Origin: Ilumatobacteraceae bacterium | Lineage (GTDB): Bacteria; Actinomycetota; Acidimicrobiia; Acidimicrobiales; Ilumatobacteraceae | NCBI GenBank assembly: GCA_017856375.1 | Contig: JAFMFC010000009.1 | Coordinates: 1-33,036 of the forward strand | DNA: 33,036 nucleotides | Reading direction: 5' to 3' | In this document: positions 4,517-9,957 of the stretch, one piece after another | How the letters are laid out: each line of letters starts with the position of its first letter | Position numbering within the stretch: the stretch's first letter is position 1 | Translations under genes and position numbers: made by a program | The notes under the pieces: generated by a model | Told to the model about the DNA's origin: nothing | The model's input: the letters and a program-made list of their open reading frames with translations, nothing else | Database searches by the model: none

Positions 4517-4972
4517 ATGCTCAAACCCGGTTCGCAAGCTCCGTCGTTCACGCTGCTCGATCAACATGGCAAGTCCGTGTCGTTGGAGAAGTATGCAAAG
4601 CGCAAGGTGCTCGTGTACTTCTATCCGAAAGCCGACACGCCCGGTTGTACGCAGCAGACTTGTCTCCTGCGTGACCTTGTCGACGAGATCGGGCGCACGG
4701 CAATCATCGGCATCAGTCCGGATGCCCCTGCCAAACAATTGAAGTTTGCTGCGAAGTTCGACGTGCCGTTTCCTCTCTTGGCGGACGAGGACCACCGCGT
4801 GGCCAAGGCGTACAAGGTGTGGAAGAAGAAGTCGATGTACGGCCGTGAGTACATGGGTATTGAGCGATCGGCGTTCCTGATTGACAAGGGTGGGGAGATC
4901 CTGCACTCGTGGTACAAGATTTCGCCGAAAGATACCGCTGCGAAACTGCTTGACGCATTGGGGGAGAAATGA
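4517..4972 (+). CDS. bcp: Thioredoxin-dependent peroxiredoxin (BCP/PrxQ)
   Basis: This cytoplasmic thiol peroxidase reduces hydrogen peroxide and organic hydroperoxides using thioredoxin. The 151-residue protein carries the PrxQ signature YPKADTPGCTQQTC. The peroxidatic cysteine is C44, and a resolving cysteine, C49, lies five residues on, which is the BCP arrangement. Conserved downstream parts are IIGISPDAPA, FPLLADEDH, and a threonine/arginine-type region around GIERSAFLIDKGG. The stop codon overlaps the next start as ATGA (4969-4972), so translation of the FabZ-like protein is probably coupled to it. No functional link between the two is evident. Confidence 0.95.
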   Translation: MLKPGSQAPSFTLLDQHGKSVSLEKYAKRKVLVYFYPKADTPGCTQQTCLLRDLVDEIGRTAIIGISPDAPAKQLKFAAKFDVPFPLLADEDHRVAKAYKVWKKKSMYGREYMGIERSAFLIDKGGEILHSWYKISPKDTAAKLLDALGEK

Positions 4973-5385
4973 AAAAGCCTGAAGATCTGATTCCGCATCG
5001 TGCGCCGTTCTTGTTTGTCGATGAAATAGTGCTCCTTGAGCCGGGGAAGAAGGCCACCGCGCGGTGGCACCTCAAGGGCGACGAATGGTTCTTCAGTGGT
5101 CATTTCCCTGGCCGCCCAACGTTGCCGGGTGTCTTGATGTGCGAGGCCATCGCTCAGACGGGTGCCTTGGCCATTGTGAGTGACGAGCGCTTTGCGGGGA
5201 AGTTGCCGCTCTTCGGGGGATTGGACGGGGCGCGTTTCCGTCGTCAGGTCGTGCCGGGCGACGTGTTGGAAATGACAACCGACTTGGTGCGGTTGTCCGG
5301 ACGGGCGGGAAAGGGCAATGGAATTGCCACCGTCAACGGCGAGACCGCATGTGAATGTGAGTTGCTCTTCGTCGTAGTCGACTGA
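4969..5385 (+). CDS. fabZ: 3-hydroxyacyl-ACP dehydratase, FabZ-like
   Basis: This predicted hot-dog fold dehydratase converts 3-hydroxyacyl-ACP to trans-2-enoyl-ACP in fatty-acid elongation. The 138-residue sequence has the FabZ opening LIPHRAPFLFVDEI. The catalytic histidine lies in FSGHFPGRPTLPGV, and the catalytic glutamate in LMCEAIAQTGALA. FRRQVVPGD, the strand facing the substrate, follows. It overlaps bcp by 4 bp and converges on the fab cluster, with only 12 bp between its stop and the fabF stop, so it sits beside the pathway it should serve but on the other strand. Other hot-dog dehydratases or thioesterases are possible, but the motif set is that of FabZ. Confidence 0.85.
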   Translation: MKKPEDLIPHRAPFLFVDEIVLLEPGKKATARWHLKGDEWFFSGHFPGRPTLPGVLMCEAIAQTGALAIVSDERFAGKLPLFGGLDGARFRRQVVPGDVLEMTTDLVRLSGRAGKGNGIATVNGETACECELLFVVVD

Positions 5386-5397
5386 AGCTGTATCCGA

Positions 5398-6579
5398 TCA
5401 GAGCGGCGACAGCACGATTGAACCGTTGTGCCCGCCAAATCCAAAATTGTTGGAGATGGTCGGCCCGGGAATCCATTCACGCGGATCGCCAACAACCAGG
5501 TCGATATTCATCTCGGGATCGACCGTCGACGTTCCACGTGTGGGCGGAATCAACCGCTTCTCGAAAGACAACAGGACCGAGGCGGCCTCAAGCGCGCCGG
5601 CAGCACCGAGAGGATGCCCGGTCACACCTTTGATCGAAACAACCGGCGTTTGATGGTTGCCGAAGACGGTGGCGATCGCTTGTGACTCAGCTTGATCATT
5701 CAATGGCGTGCTCGTTCCATGCGCATTGATCTGTTTGATCTCGTTAGGAGTGAGTCCGGCGTCTTCAAGTGCAAGATGCATGCAACGCGCTGCGCCGGTG
5801 CCGCCCGGCGAGGGAGCGGTGATGTGGTGGGCATCGGCATTGCTTGCTGCACCGAGTACTTCAGCGATGATCCTCGCACCTCGTTGTTGAGCTAGGTCCA
5901 TTCGCTCGAGCACGAAGACGGCCGAACCTTCACCCATTACGAATCCATCTCTTGCCTGATCGAACGGCATGCTTCGTAGCGTGGAAGAAATTGCGGTCAT
6001 GTTGGCAAATCCGGCGATAGCGGTGACTGTTCCCGCCGACTCTGATCCGCCGGTTATCACGGCATCGCACATGCCCCAGGCAATCTGTCGTGCGGCATTG
6101 CCAATGGCATGAGTCGCTGCGGCACACGCAGTGCAAACGGTTTCGGCAGGCCCTTGGAATCCGTAGCGCATGGAAATGGAAGCACCAGCTGCATTGGCCA
6201 TCATCATCGGGACAAGAAATGGCGAAACCCGGCGCTCACCCTTCTCGACACGCACGATCACTTGCTCTTCGAGTGTGTGGAGTCCACCGATTCCAGTGCC
6301 GAAGATCGTTCCAATACGCGTGCGGTCGTAGGGAATCTCACCGGCTTGTTCGAGGGCTTCGTGGGCCGCTGCCAAGGCGTACTGCTCGACGCGATCAGCA
6401 CGACGGGCGTCCTTTGGTGAGTCAAACCAAGGAGATGGATCCCAATCAACAATTTCAGCGCACTTGGTTCCCGTAAGGGCGGGGCCAAGGAGCCCTTGCC
6501 AAAACGATTCCTTGCCGATCCCGCAGGGAGCGACGACTCCGTATCCGGTGATCGCTACACGATGGCCGGCACCTCGCAT
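5398..6579 (-). CDS. fabF: 3-oxoacyl-ACP synthase II (beta-ketoacyl-ACP synthase)
   Basis: This condensing enzyme extends acyl-ACP by two carbons using malonyl-ACP. The 393-residue thiolase-fold protein has the KASII Cys-His-His triad. C152 is in VCTACAAATHAIG, H287 in INAHGTST, and H322 in GVTGHPLGAAGALE. The C-terminus ends SNNFGFGGHNGSIVL, as in the family. The ATG at 6579 gives the usual MxxVAITGYGVVAP start, 7 bp after the acpP stop and without a ribosome-binding site, so it is probably translated from the acpP transcript. It is the last gene of the fabD-H-G-acpP-F cluster. Confidence 0.95.
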   Translation of the reverse strand: MRGAGHRVAITGYGVVAPCGIGKESFWQGLLGPALTGTKCAEIVDWDPSPWFDSPKDARRADRVEQYALAAAHEALEQAGEIPYDRTRIGTIFGTGIGGLHTLEEQVIVRVEKGERRVSPFLVPMMMANAAGASISMRYGFQGPAETVCTACAAATHAIGNAARQIAWGMCDAVITGGSESAGTVTAIAGFANMTAISSTLRSMPFDQARDGFVMGEGSAVFVLERMDLAQQRGARIIAEVLGAASNADAHHITAPSPGGTGAARCMHLALEDAGLTPNEIKQINAHGTSTPLNDQAESQAIATVFGNHQTPVVSIKGVTGHPLGAAGALEAASVLLSFEKRLIPPTRGTSTVDPEMNIDLVVGDPREWIPGPTISNNFGFGGHNGSIVLSPL

Positions 6580-6586
6580 TGCGGGA

Positions 6587-6826
6587 TCAGCCAGCCTTGG
6601 CGCTGACGAGCGCGAAGGCCTTTCCCACAGTGTCCACGCCTTCGAGATCCGATTCCGGAACCTCGATGCCGAACTCTTCTTCTAGTGCCATCACGAGCTC
6701 GACGAGGTCGAGGCTGTCGGCGTCGAGATCCTCGTTGAACTTGGCCTCAGGGGTGACCTTGGCTGCATCGACAGACAAGACATCCACTGCACACTTCACG
6801 AAACGATCGAACAACTGCTGGTCCAT
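6587..6826 (-). CDS. acpP: Acyl carrier protein
   Basis: ACP carries growing fatty acyl chains on a 4'-phosphopantetheine arm. The 79-residue acidic protein has the attachment serine S38 in the motif DADSLDLVELVMALEEEF. Helices I and IV are recognisable on either side. The ATG at 6826 is preceded by a good Shine-Dalgarno sequence, GGAGGG, with 4 bases of spacing. This is one of the strongest ribosome-binding sites in the window and fits the high ACP demand. A TAAGAT box 24 bp upstream suggests an extra internal promoter. fabG lies upstream and fabF follows 7 bp downstream. Confidence 0.97.
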   Translation of the reverse strand: MDQQLFDRFVKCAVDVLSVDAAKVTPEAKFNEDLDADSLDLVELVMALEEEFGIEVPESDLEGVDTVGKAFALVSAKAG

Positions 6827-6883: not shown

Positions 6884-7612
6884 TCAGTGTCCCATGCCAA
6901 GACCGCCGTCAACAGGAATGATCGCGCCGGTGATGTAGGCGGCACCCGGTCCCGCAAGAAAGTGAACGACCTCGGCGATCTCTGCTGGTTGGGCCATGCG
7001 TGCGAGTGGTACGGCTTTCAGCATCTCTTCTTTTCGAGCTTCGGAAATCGCCGCTGTCATATCGGTTTCGACGGGGCCTGGGGCCACAACATTGACGGTG
7101 ATTTGACGAGAACCAATTTCGCGAGCAAGTGAACGAGCCATGCCGACGAGCCCTGCTTTGGATGCTGCGTAGTTCACTTGGCCGGGTGAACCAAGCATCG
7201 CTACGACACTCGACATCAAGATGATGCGTCCTTTGCGTGCTCGCAGCATCCCTTGTACGGCACGTTTCACGATTCGAAAAGTGCCAACCAGGTTTGCTTC
7301 GACCACGCGAGAAAACTGATCTTCGGACATGCGCAAAATGAGTGTGTCATCGGTGATGCCCGCATTGGCGATCAGAACTTCCACGGGGCCGAATCGTTCT
7401 TCGATTTCCTTGAAGGCCTGTGCAACCTGATCTGGGTTGGTGACATCGCATTTCACGGCGAAGAAATCGCTCGGCGGTGGCGAACTGTTGTAGGTGATGG
7501 CGACACGATCGCCGGATTCGGCGAATGCTTTGGCGCAAGCGAGTCCAATGCCGCGGGATCCGCCGGTAATCAAAACGACCCGCCCCAAACTGTTGTCTGC
7601 TGCATCGCTCAT
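6884..7612 (-). CDS. fabG: 3-oxoacyl-ACP reductase
   Basis: FabG reduces 3-oxoacyl-ACP to 3-hydroxyacyl-ACP with NADPH. The 242-residue short-chain dehydrogenase has the Rossmann motif ITGGSRGIGLA (residues 15-25), NAG at 83-85, and the catalytic residues N107, S135, Y148 and K152 (in MSSVV and YAASK). It ends GAIIPVDGGLGMGH, the usual FabG tail. The start overlaps the fabH stop by 4 bp (ATGA), indicating translational coupling. The context inside the fab cluster supports the FabG role rather than another SDR activity. Confidence 0.94.
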   Translation of the reverse strand: MSDAADNSLGRVVLITGGSRGIGLACAKAFAESGDRVAITYNSSPPPSDFFAVKCDVTNPDQVAQAFKEIEERFGPVEVLIANAGITDDTLILRMSEDQFSRVVEANLVGTFRIVKRAVQGMLRARKGRIILMSSVVAMLGSPGQVNYAASKAGLVGMARSLAREIGSRQITVNVVAPGPVETDMTAAISEARKEEMLKAVPLARMAQPAEIAEVVHFLAGPGAAYITGAIIPVDGGLGMGH

Positions 7613-8574
7613 CGTGAAGAGAGACCCTTTCCGTTCCAGCGCATGATCGCACTTGCTGCCGTCATGCCTGCACCGAATCCGACCATCAGCACGAGATCGC
7701 CTTTGGCCAAACGCCCTTTGTCGGCGGCATCAAACAAGGCCAAGGGGATGGACGCTGATGAGGTATTGCCTGTTTCCTGCAGGTTGATCGCAGTCTTTTC
7801 CATTGGGCATCCCAGTCGATCACACGCGGACTCGATGATTCGAATGTTCGCCTGATGGGGAACGACAAGCGCGATGTCATCGATGCTGATTCCCGCGCGT
7901 TGCAAACTCTTCTCGGCCGAGTCCACCATGATGCGGACCGCGCGTCGAAACACCTCTTTGCCGTCCATGTGAATGTGGCCGCCAACTTCGCAATAGAGGA
8001 GTGGCTCGGCTGAACCGTCAGCATCGATGTCCCAGGCGAGCAGATCGTTGCGACCTTCTGTGGCTTCCAACACTGCAGCTCCCGAACCGTCTGCGAAGAG
8101 GATCGCGGTGTTGCGATCCGTCCAGTCCACGATGCGGGAAAGCGTGTCGGTTCCGATCAGCAGCACCGATCGGGCACCGATGGCGATCAGCCCACTGGCG
8201 ACGGTGAGTCCGTAGACGAATCCCGAGCATGCAGCGTTGACGTCGAAGGCCCCGCAGCGCAATCCCAGTTCGTTTTGCACCGTTGCAGAGGTGGCCGGAA
8301 CCGTTCGGTCAGGAGTCGTCGTAGCCAGTACGACGGCATCGATTCGCGTGGGGTCGATACCGCTCATGGCAATGGCCTTGCGCGCGCTCTCCACGCTCAA
8401 GCTGGCGGTCGATCCACCGATGTGGCGTCGGGAGATGCCCGTTCGTTCACGAATCCATTGGTCCGAGGTGTCCATGGTTGCGGCCAGGTCGTCGTTCGTG
8501 ACGACTTTGTCTGGCAACGCTGTTCCCCAGCCAGTCAGTGCAAACCCTGGCACGTTGACGTTTACGCTGGGCAC
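7609..8574 (-). CDS. fabH: 3-oxoacyl-ACP synthase III
   Basis: FabH starts fatty-acid synthesis by condensing an acyl-CoA primer with malonyl-ACP. The 321-residue protein shows GWGTALPDKVVTND and SDQWIRERTGI. Its Cys-His-Asn triad is C116 in DVNAACSGFVYGL, H240 in VPHQANIRI, and N270 in QETGNTSSASIP. The start codon is GTG at 8574, only 13 bp after the fabD stop. A TAGTGT box sits exactly 6 bases upstream of it and there is no Shine-Dalgarno sequence, so a leaderless secondary transcript is likely. It overlaps fabG by 4 bp. Primer preference (acetyl or branched) cannot be read from the sequence. Confidence 0.95.
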   Translation of the reverse strand: MPSVNVNVPGFALTGWGTALPDKVVTNDDLAATMDTSDQWIRERTGISRRHIGGSTASLSVESARKAIAMSGIDPTRIDAVVLATTTPDRTVPATSATVQNELGLRCGAFDVNAACSGFVYGLTVASGLIAIGARSVLLIGTDTLSRIVDWTDRNTAILFADGSGAAVLEATEGRNDLLAWDIDADGSAEPLLYCEVGGHIHMDGKEVFRRAVRIMVDSAEKSLQRAGISIDDIALVVPHQANIRIIESACDRLGCPMEKTAINLQETGNTSSASIPLALFDAADKGRLAKGDLVLMVGFGAGMTAASAIMRWNGKGLSSR

Positions 8575-8587: not shown

Positions 8588-9775
8588 TCAGTGAGTGCGA
8601 AGCCACGCGATTGGTTGATGAGCGGTCACGCGCTCGCCGTCGACTGCAATGAACGACTGCACCACGCCATCGAACGACGAACGCACTTCCGATTCTCCTA
8701 CGTGGCCGATGACCTGACCGACGGAAATACGCGAACCGGGGGAGACGGTTGAGTTTGGCGTGAATACACCGGCTGCTGGCGACACCACGAGTCGTTCCAT
8801 CGCGAAAAGGTGCTCGCCCTCGTGAGCAGTGATGGTCGTCGGCGTTGTCGAAGGAGCGAATTCACCAAGCCATTCGAGCAAGTGGTCGAGATCCTCCGGC
8901 GTGGCAACACTGATGGTGCGAGCACCATCGACCGTTCGCTTCGCCATGCCCGTGAGAACGCCTCCCGGACCGAGTTCGATGAAGCTGGTGATTCCCTGTT
9001 CGGCCATTGCAAGCAGGGAATGTTTCCACCGCACCGGTGAGGACAACTGGGCCGACAAGAGCGAACTCCATTCAGCAGCTTCTTGATGTGCCCGGGCATC
9101 GACGTTTGCCACGACGGGAACCTCGGTATCACGAAGGCGGGCATCAGCGATCGCGTCGCGAAGTCGATCACGAGCCGATGTCATGAACGGGGTGTGAAAC
9201 GCGCCGGCCACGGGGAGTGGCATCACCTTCTTGGCACCAAGTTCTTTCGCGTGTGTTGAAGCAAGGGCAACTCCATCGATGGAGCCGGCGATCACCACCT
9301 GTCCTGGCGCATTGAAGTTGGCCACCCACACTTCGTTGTCGGCACGTCTGCACGCGACCTCGACATCCTCGTCGTCCAAACCGAGCACTGCGGCCATCGT
9401 TCCAGGCGCGGCGATCCCTGCTTCATGCATGGCGCTGGCGCGCTCAGTGACGAGTCGCAATCCCTCGTCAAAACCAACCGAGCCCGTCGCGGCTAATGCG
9501 GTGTACTCGCCGAGGCTGTGCCCGGCACAAATTGCCGGCTCGATACCCAACCTTTCGACCGCGTCGAGGACCATGAGCGAGGCGACGAACGTCGTGAGCT
9601 GTGCGTTGCGCGTGTCCTTCAGAGCGTCGGCGTCGGCATCGAGGAGCAAGTGTGCAACATCGCGACCGACGATTTCAGACGCTTCGCCGACGAGCTCCCA
9701 GCTCTCATGGTCGTGCCATGGTCGCCCCATACCGGGCCTCTGGGATCCCTGACCGGGAAAGGTGAAAGCAAGCAT
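8588..9775 (-). CDS. fabD: Malonyl-CoA:ACP transacylase fused to a biotinyl/lipoyl-like domain
   Basis: The N-terminal part (about residues 1-303) is a normal FabD, which moves malonyl groups from CoA to ACP. It has FPGQGSQRPGMG, the nucleophile S87 in AGHSLGEY, R112 in the TERASAM segment, and H194 in GAFHTPFM. ELGPGGVLTGMAKR follows near residue 267. After a Thr/Pro-rich linker (about 304-326) comes an extra domain (about 327-395) with the pattern of a biotinyl/lipoyl barrel: SPAAGVFTP, GSRISVGQVIGHVG, FDGVV and DGERVTAHQPIAWL. This extra domain contains no lysine, so it cannot be biotinylated or lipoylated in the usual way. Ordinary FabD is about 300-315 residues. It is the first gene of the fab cluster. 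The transacylase call is firm; the role of the extra domain is unknown. Confidence 0.93.
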   Translation of the reverse strand: MLAFTFPGQGSQRPGMGRPWHDHESWELVGEASEIVGRDVAHLLLDADADALKDTRNAQLTTFVASLMVLDAVERLGIEPAICAGHSLGEYTALAATGSVGFDEGLRLVTERASAMHEAGIAAPGTMAAVLGLDDEDVEVACRRADNEVWVANFNAPGQVVIAGSIDGVALASTHAKELGAKKVMPLPVAGAFHTPFMTSARDRLRDAIADARLRDTEVPVVANVDARAHQEAAEWSSLLSAQLSSPVRWKHSLLAMAEQGITSFIELGPGGVLTGMAKRTVDGARTISVATPEDLDHLLEWLGEFAPSTTPTTITAHEGEHLFAMERLVVSPAAGVFTPNSTVSPGSRISVGQVIGHVGESEVRSSFDGVVQSFIAVDGERVTAHQPIAWLRTH

Positions 9776-9847: not shown

Positions 9848-9930
9848 GCCCGAGTGGCGGAATGGCAGACGCGACGGACTCAAAATCCGTTGTTCGCAAG
9901 GGCGTGTGGGTTCAAGTCCCACCTCGGGCA
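9848..9930 (+). tRNA. tRNA-Leu, anticodon CAA
   Basis: This 83-base class II tRNA has a 7-bp acceptor stem GCCCGAG/CTCGGGC and discriminator base A. The D-arm is GCGG...CGC, and the anticodon stem ACGGA/TCCGT encloses the loop CTCAAAA, giving anticodon CAA, which reads UUG. A long variable arm, as expected for leucine, and a T-arm GTGGG-TTCAAGT-CCCAC complete it. CCA is not encoded and must be added after transcription. Confidence 0.96.
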
Positions 9931-9957
9931 CTGATTGTCAGTAGCGAAAAGATTTCG

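Follow-up and report, generated by a model that had tools for sequence, protein, structure and literature searches.

A FabD-fused barrel without an attachment lysine looks like a non-catalytic part of the fatty-acid machinery in Actinomycetota

Introduction

Why would a malonyl-CoA:ACP transacylase end in a carrier-like domain that cannot carry anything? Ordinary FabD proteins, such as those of Vibrio, E. coli, and M. tuberculosis, are chains of about 300 to 310 residues without a barrel. In contrast, an Ilumatobacteraceae bacterium (Actinomycetota; Acidimicrobiia) encodes a FabD of 395 amino acids that ends in one. The gene lies in a stretch of 33,036 nucleotides (NCBI GenBank assembly GCA_017856375.1, contig JAFMFC010000009.1, positions 1 to 33,036 of the forward strand), hereafter called the window. 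From the sequence of the window it had been proposed that this tail is a biotinyl/lipoyl-type barrel unable to take biotin or lipoate, and that it could dock FabD to partners such as acetyl-CoA carboxylase. Here, we investigated this original prediction with profile searches, structure prediction, and a comparison of barrel loci in the window's class and phylum.

Results

A FabD with a C-terminal barrel in a FAS-II cluster

On its minus strand, the window holds a type II fatty acid synthase (FAS-II) cluster that comprises fabD, fabH, fabG, an acyl carrier protein (ACP) open reading frame, and fabF. The features are given below in window coordinates.

8588..9775, minus strand: whole gene of the 395-residue FabD with C-terminal barrel (open reading frame; TIGR00128 above cut-off)
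8861..9775, minus strand: catalytic malonyl-CoA:ACP transacylase domain, residues 1-305 (TIGR00128 match, model, and motifs)
8822..8860, minus strand: variable linker, residues ~306-318 (low model confidence at 310-323; high pN)
8591..8821, minus strand: lysine-free biotinyl-type barrel, conserved unit residues 319-395 (PF00364 as a piece, AlphaFold2, folds of biotin carboxyl carrier protein, relatives)
8687..8698, minus strand: shortened beta-turn GESE, residues 360-363, at the site of the biotin/lipoate lysine in true carriers, with 4 residues fewer (alignment)
7609..8574, minus strand: fabH, the next gene, 13 bases beyond the fabD stop codon (PF08541/PF08545)
6884..7612, minus strand: fabG (family profile match)
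6587..6826, minus strand: ACP open reading frame with a DADSLD motif (open reading frame and motif)
5398..6579, minus strand: fabF (family profile match)
4969..5385, plus strand: fabZ-like gene, convergent with fabF (PF07977)

We take DADSLD in the frame at 6587..6826 to be the ACP site. No carboxyltransferase gene was found downstream of fabF within the window. A tRNA-Leu (CAA) gene lies on the opposite strand just upstream of fabD, at 9848-9931 (+).

The catalytic part is that of an ordinary FabD. Residues 1-283 match TIGR00128 fabD at 281.7 bits (cut-off 260.9), which places the protein in this family, and the modelled catalytic domain aligns over about 300 residues with solved FabDs of Vibrio, E. 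coli, and M. tuberculosis (3hjv, 1mla, and 2qc3). The protein carries GQGSQ at residue 8, GHSLGE at 85, GAFHTP at 191, and Arg112; Gln9, Ser87, Arg112, and His194 are invariant in an alignment of 24 FabDs. We take the Ser and His to be catalytic, and we assign Gln and Arg their roles on the same assumption.

The tail has the fold of a biotinyl domain

Run as an 80-residue piece, the tail matches Pfam PF00364 Biotin_lipoyl at 23.4 bits, above the cut-off of 22.1; within the whole protein the score is 18.1, under the cut-off. Four of six relatives run as pieces also passed, while L176 and L289 gave no match. AlphaFold2 (tail plus nine relatives) returned a barrel for the tail with a mean pLDDT of 90.8. 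The full-length FabD model (pLDDT 93.7) is confident in both the catalytic domain and the barrel, and residues 310-323 are the sole stretch with pLDDT below 50. The barrel fold of the original prediction was thus borne out, with one correction: the domain had been placed from residue 327, whereas the conserved unit begins at about 319.

Which known domains does the tail resemble most? Among Foldseek's own candidates, the top VIA-align match for the tail model was the biotin carboxyl carrier protein (BCCP) of E. coli (4hr7_G; Z 11.5, with 67 residues superposed at an rmsd of 1.0). BCCP domains took all of the top eight places. 5gua (P. horikoshi BCCP) and 1bdo matched at Z 11.4 each, and Arabidopsis BCCP1 (9a87) at Z 11.1. 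The FabD tail, as modelled, therefore has its barrel fold in common with BCCP and the PF00364 biotinyl domain. However, BesA (Z 10.8) and efflux adaptors (10.5) follow less than 1 Z unit behind the first BCCP, so the fold alone does not settle descent. A profile built from 21 relatives matched biotinyl domains in the PDB (2d5d, E 9e-06; 1bdo, E 4e-04), and its best score fell to a P. horikoshi decarboxylase gamma chain, not to an acetyl-CoA carboxylase BCCP. With regard to a lipoyl or biotinyl origin, the tail profile matches both kinds in the PDB, the biotinyl one first. The stretch where a thumb would lie has 18-19 residues in 37 of 139 barrels (15 residues in the two biotin carriers of the window's genome, 22 in one AccB); descent from the thumb-bearing AccB type of BCCP is only a lead suggested by these lengths.

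The versatility of the fold raises the possibility that the barrel is a sensor of a small ligand (acyl-CoA, malonyl-CoA, or a metal) that tunes FabD. Efflux adaptors, BesA, and hydrolase domains are all among the matches and attest to many non-carrier roles, but no ligand is suggested by the gene context, and we consider a sensor quite unlikely.

The FabD-type barrels have conserved features of their own. An ER near the start of the barrel and a WLR at its end are conserved among the barrels and absent from the aligned BCCP; both presumably lie away from the biotin turn, given the established topology of this fold. A nearly invariant GE pair (residues 320-321) sits in the low-confidence stretch of the model and may fold upon binding. 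Thus, unlike BCCP, FabD-type barrels combine an extra conserved ER, W, and R with the lack of an attachment lysine in 139 relatives, and they occur either as part of FabD or as the product of a gene that lies between fabD and fabH.

The attachment lysine is missing throughout the family

Three true carriers of the window's own genome served as references in an alignment of 139 distinct barrels. Lysine occupies the attachment column in 0 of the 139, which have a gap (79), glycine (44), or another residue (16) at this position. This supports the original view that biotin or lipoate cannot be attached to this barrel at the usual lysine. The accompanying claim that the domain has no lysine at all holds for the window tail, which is lysine-free from residue 322 on, but not for the family, since 85 of the 139 distinct barrels have none and relatives carry up to three elsewhere in the domain. 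Total absence of lysine was therefore rejected as the defining trait; what is conserved is the absence of lysine at the attachment position.

The turn itself has also changed. Flanking glycines are 20 residues apart in the three true carriers, whereas the spacing in the barrels is 16 in 79, 17 in 1, and 20-21 in 59; the window turn is four residues shorter than that of true carriers. Where a distinct barrel could be assigned to a locus of the 105-locus set described below, spacing 16 was seen in 27 of the 31 fused barrels and in none of the 49 separate ones; a further 52 distinct barrels outside this set all have spacing 16. This distribution suggests that loss of the lysine probably came first, followed by loss of the turn in most of the fused type.

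True biotin carriers with MKM motifs are encoded elsewhere in the window's genome, so the barrel is not a failed sole BCCP. The true carriers noted in this genome are a biotin carboxylase-BCCP protein (L226, C64), a lipoyl E2 (L227, C58), and a BCCP domain at a carboxyltransferase N-terminus (L225, C52; ESMKMEH). EAMKL is present in three AccB-type proteins, which are weak matches from other phyla.

The tail is conserved and under purifying selection

Is the tail an accident of this genome? A frameshift or read-through, raised with the original prediction, would leave close relatives without it. Instead, all 37 genomes searched in the window's family (Ilumatobacteraceae), its own included, have the tail, with the gene partial or split in G002, G011, G016, and G020. 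Within the genus (19 sequences, 171 pairs), residues 1-300 had a median pN of 0.129 and residues 322-395 one of 0.156, whereas the stretch 301-321 reached 0.369. The corresponding dN/dS values were 0.048, 0.193, and 0.076 for the catalytic domain, linker, and barrel (94, 71, and 78 usable pairs), rough figures because synonymous sites are near saturation. By these substitution estimates, the barrel is under purifying selection near that of the catalytic domain. We rejected a frameshift or read-through origin, which is untenable because the tail is found in all 37 family genomes and is under purifying selection.

The same data bear on whether the barrel is a functionless, decaying remnant of a BCCP. 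The lysine is lost, and in most fused forms the turn as well, as decay would predict. However, selection close to that on the catalytic domain and the retention of the motifs in families outside the class speak against decay, which we judge very improbable.

A free-standing barrel protein is frequent in Actinomycetota

The FabD fusion is one form of a more widespread protein. A search of 395 genomes of the class gave 266 with a match at E <=1e-3, of which the weakest (E 1e-3 to ~1e-7) are, by sequence, probably ordinary biotin proteins. In 11 genomes with only such weak matches, no barrel was found between fabD and the next FAS gene, and these were not counted as members (G065, G072, G076, G077, G095, G098, G102, G110, G113, G136, and G154). 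Across the phylum, 93 of 396 genomes had a match at E <=1e-5, ordinary biotin proteins probably included. We inspected 20 matches from the phylum search, chiefly the higher-scoring ones, and 17 lay between fabD and fabH; the others lay between fabH and a fabD truncated at the edge of the contig (G706), beside fabH without fabD (G716), and beside a carboxyltransferase (G690). Free-standing barrel proteins are thus often encoded in Actinomycetota outside the window's lineage, typically by a small gene between fabD and fabH.

For a control, 80 FabD loci from a named genome collection were searched with a broad barrel profile. Nine had a barrel, all labelled Actinomycetota, and 71 did not. In all 32 barrel-less control loci that hold both genes, fabH precedes fabD. 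A whole-genome search of 37 of the 80 control records returned three members at E <=4e-21, and the best of the other 34 reached 9e-10. One genome that encodes a fused FabD also has, at another place (L044, G050:C17), a second FabD of 313 amino acids without a barrel.

Fused, separate, and absent barrels

To compare barrel states, we scored 105 loci from 103 genomes (two each from G211 and G071); since the loci were chosen for barrel state, the counts are not frequencies. The barrel was fused at 33 loci, separate and adjoining fabD at 49, present without fabD alongside at 7, and absent at 16; for three of these 16, the genome encodes a barrel at another place (G211, G071, and G066). At 33 of the 49 separate loci, the candidate barrel start nearest the fabD stop codon overlaps it by 1, 4, or 8 bases, counts that rest on taking the nearest start codon as the barrel start.

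In a FabD tree built by a quick method from 104 FabDs, a single clade (99, starred) unites the 33 loci of the class with a separate barrel, and a second clade (97, starred) unites 27 fused loci, the window among them. On this tree the fused state must have changed at least 4 times, although starred branches force only 1 change. Two FabD-barrel fusions with diverged FabDs lie outside the class, at L288 (G622, a single contig of 7.0 Mb) and L284 (G475). G622 sits on a very long branch. These two fusions are perhaps independent. In family f22, three genomes (G253, G118, and G110; L248, L260, and L261) have fabD-fabG-fabF operons that lack fabH and the barrel at that place.

With which enzyme does the barrel work? 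The fused partner is FabD in all 33 fused loci, and no in-frame fusion of the barrel to FabH, FabG, FabF, or AccD occurs in the 105 loci. This pattern would fit a barrel that assists FabD and no other enzyme, acting in its stability, oligomerisation, or ACP docking, with accD merely a gene of the same pathway; the position of the barrel gene just after fabD in 49 further loci points the same way. However, other FabDs work without a barrel, as in the 71 control loci, and the linker is disordered in the model, although the barrel may still pack on FabD.

Alternatively, the barrel may act on behalf of FabH or the whole FAS-II assembly, holding condensing enzymes together as a scaffold. Most loci inspected have fabH after the barrel, and G042 and G260 keep the two genes together at a place that lacks fabD. 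Set against this are barrels without a neighboring fabH (G096, G330, G353, G211, and G690), which weaken the case for FabH as the partner, and the absence of a barrel-FabH fusion from the 105 loci. We regard a scaffold of this kind as unlikely.

Carboxyltransferase genes near the barrel

A carboxyltransferase (accD) was scored if it lay within 300 bases after fabF, and loci were scorable if the gene was found or at least 1500 bases were readable. Within the class, the gene followed fabF in 28 of 30 separate and 2 of 3 fabD-less loci, compared with 0 of 28 fused loci and 0 of 11 without a barrel. Non-fused barrel loci of the class thus have it in 30 of 33 scorable cases, largely from one clade. 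Two fused class loci have a carboxyltransferase further off, and none has one within the 300 bases. Outside the class, the counts were 0 of 10 separate, 0 of 2 fused, and 1 of 1 fabD-less. Because the separate loci of the class form one clade, the 28 of 30 may represent one event, and the association with accD is confounded by descent. In view of the tree, we treat the association as largely one lineage's trait, to be weighed only together with G211, G690, and G716.

The enzyme encoded in these operons is a PF01039 carboxyltransferase (E 1e-121, 1.7e-118, and 5.6e-163 in three examples). At L241 (5083-6432) and L167 (3750-5099) it looks short, at about 450 amino acids, with the PF01039 match beginning at profile position 54 or 68; the gene starts used are putative, set by the match or chosen manually.

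What happens when the barrel is apart from fabD? A carboxyltransferase is near in 5 of the 7 barrels without fabD alongside. In G211, one contig has the barrel and then a carboxyltransferase, with 62 bases between the matches, and another contig has the contig-cut end of fabD followed by fabH, fabG, and fabF, with neither barrel nor AccD there. In G690, a 121-residue barrel frame ends at 8498 and a carboxyltransferase starts at 8505 of L289; some 380 kb separate this place from fabD, which the same contig carries. G042, G260, and G716 have the barrel, fabH, further genes, fabF, and accD in this order, with fabD not at that place (in G716 it is on another contig). In G060, which has no accD after fabF, the barrel and fabD are both at contig ends, so their separation is probably a mere contig break. 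The seventh barrel, in G071, has no FAS genes around it. The barrels of G690 and G716 both lack the attachment lysine and are diverged (E 6.6e-11 and 8.9e-10 with profile A1); the one from G690 matches no family in Pfam or NCBIfam. Since ordinary AccB carriers of other phyla reach 9e-10 with the broader profile A6, the membership of these two is less sure and they weigh less.

Other gene orders stand against a carboxylase link. Operons outside the class keep the barrel without accD after fabF, and in the fused lineages, the window included, accD does not directly follow fabF. Moreover, barrels also lie outside any FAS context, in G071 and G066. These two orphans (L263 8088-8402 (-), G071:C8; L342 1492-1707 (+), G066:C73) lack the lysine turn and are alike in sequence (GDD-VVAP-SG ... 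QP-WL); no barrel was found between fabD and fabH in the operons of their genomes.

Two class genomes of 1.1 Mb (G065 and G076; L258 and L259), both among the 11 scorable class loci without a barrel, have carboxyltransferase and biotin carboxylase genes directly before fabD-fabH-fabG-fabF and no barrel. Carboxylase-FAS linkage thus does not need the barrel.

The neighborhoods also bear on the accessory subunit of FabD alone, the chief rival of an adaptor between carboxylase and FabD. Such a subunit would account for the fabD-barrel-fabH loci outside the class, with accD in 0 of the 10 scorable; it would account less well for the 7 loci where fabD is not beside the barrel and a carboxyltransferase is near in 5. 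We consider it a serious possibility, if on the whole somewhat improbable.

Discussion

What role would such a barrel have? The barrel looks like a non-catalytic part of the fatty-acid machinery. Carriage on the usual lysine is absent, selection is present, and the barrel is encoded with FabD and often near a carboxyltransferase when apart from it, so the simplest reading is an adaptor. We therefore favor, tentatively and at somewhat short of an even chance, a pseudo-carrier that is now a non-catalytic FAS-II adaptor tying a component of acyl-CoA carboxylase to FabD. The original interpretation is partly supported: the reading as a degenerate biotinyl barrel holds, and docking toward acetyl-CoA carboxylase would be a role to which some gene context points and other context does not.

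How might the adaptor work? A biotinyl-fold domain would have lost its attachment lysine and become a non-catalytic adaptor of FAS-II. It would most likely bind a component of acyl-CoA carboxylase, the carboxyltransferase (AccD) first, and tie it to FabD. Malonyl-CoA could then be passed from the enzyme that makes it to FabD, which loads ACP; alternatively, the carboxylase may be assembled or regulated where FAS works. Across much of the class, and likewise among other Actinomycetota, the adaptor would be a free subunit encoded beside FabD, whereas a flexible linker would hold it to FabD in the window's lineage. That the proteins touch, which partner is bound, and how flux would respond are our inference.

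Do similar proteins exist elsewhere? Plant BADC proteins are reported to be relatives of BCCP without the biotinylation motif that aid acetyl-CoA carboxylase assembly or, by other accounts, inhibit the enzyme (PMC11926652). They are BCCP-like, non-catalytic, and devoid of the AMKL motif, and the barrel likewise lacks an attachment motif. Unlike BADC, the barrel is bacterial, belongs to a FAS-II operon, and may be fused to FabD; the two are likened by description.

A second comparison is the E (epsilon) subunit of actinobacterial acyl-CoA carboxylases (TfAcCCE and others), a small non-catalytic assembly factor according to PMC7835884, which also places the T. fusca carboxyltransferase Tfu_2555 beside the E subunit Tfu_2556. 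The barrel resembles it, by description, in being small, non-catalytic, and in places encoded beside a carboxyltransferase. However, the barrel is directly beside a carboxyltransferase only in G211 and G690; elsewhere FAS genes mostly lie between, and the fused loci are unlinked. Epsilon subunits are not known to be biotinyl barrels.

Finally, the mycobacterial FAS-II locus contains a carboxyltransferase gene, accD6 (PMC5311964). In this respect it is like much of the class, where a carboxyltransferase also lies in the FAS-II locus. No barrel gene is known from the mycobacterial locus. Among the matches listed in the open PMC literature, no title or opening of an abstract pointed to a fusion of FabD with a biotinyl domain, or to a barrel gene that lies between fabD and fabH.

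Why would an extra gene in this pathway matter? FAS-II is an antibiotic target whose parts list is usually taken as known, and a conserved additional gene between fabD and fabH would be a missing part of that list in many Actinomycetota. In its fullest form, our proposal is an undescribed FAS-II component of Actinomycetota: a lysine-less, BCCP-derived protein that would physically couple acyl-CoA carboxylase to FabD, so that a single complex would both make malonyl-CoA and load it on ACP. Such a protein would correspond in bacteria to BADC of plants, and in the window's lineage it would have turned into a domain of FabD; taken as a whole, we think this rather doubtful. If the coupling of carboxylase and FabD is true, however, it would offer a direct way to test malonyl-CoA channelling in bacteria, and the plant-type pseudo-BCCP would have a bacterial counterpart.
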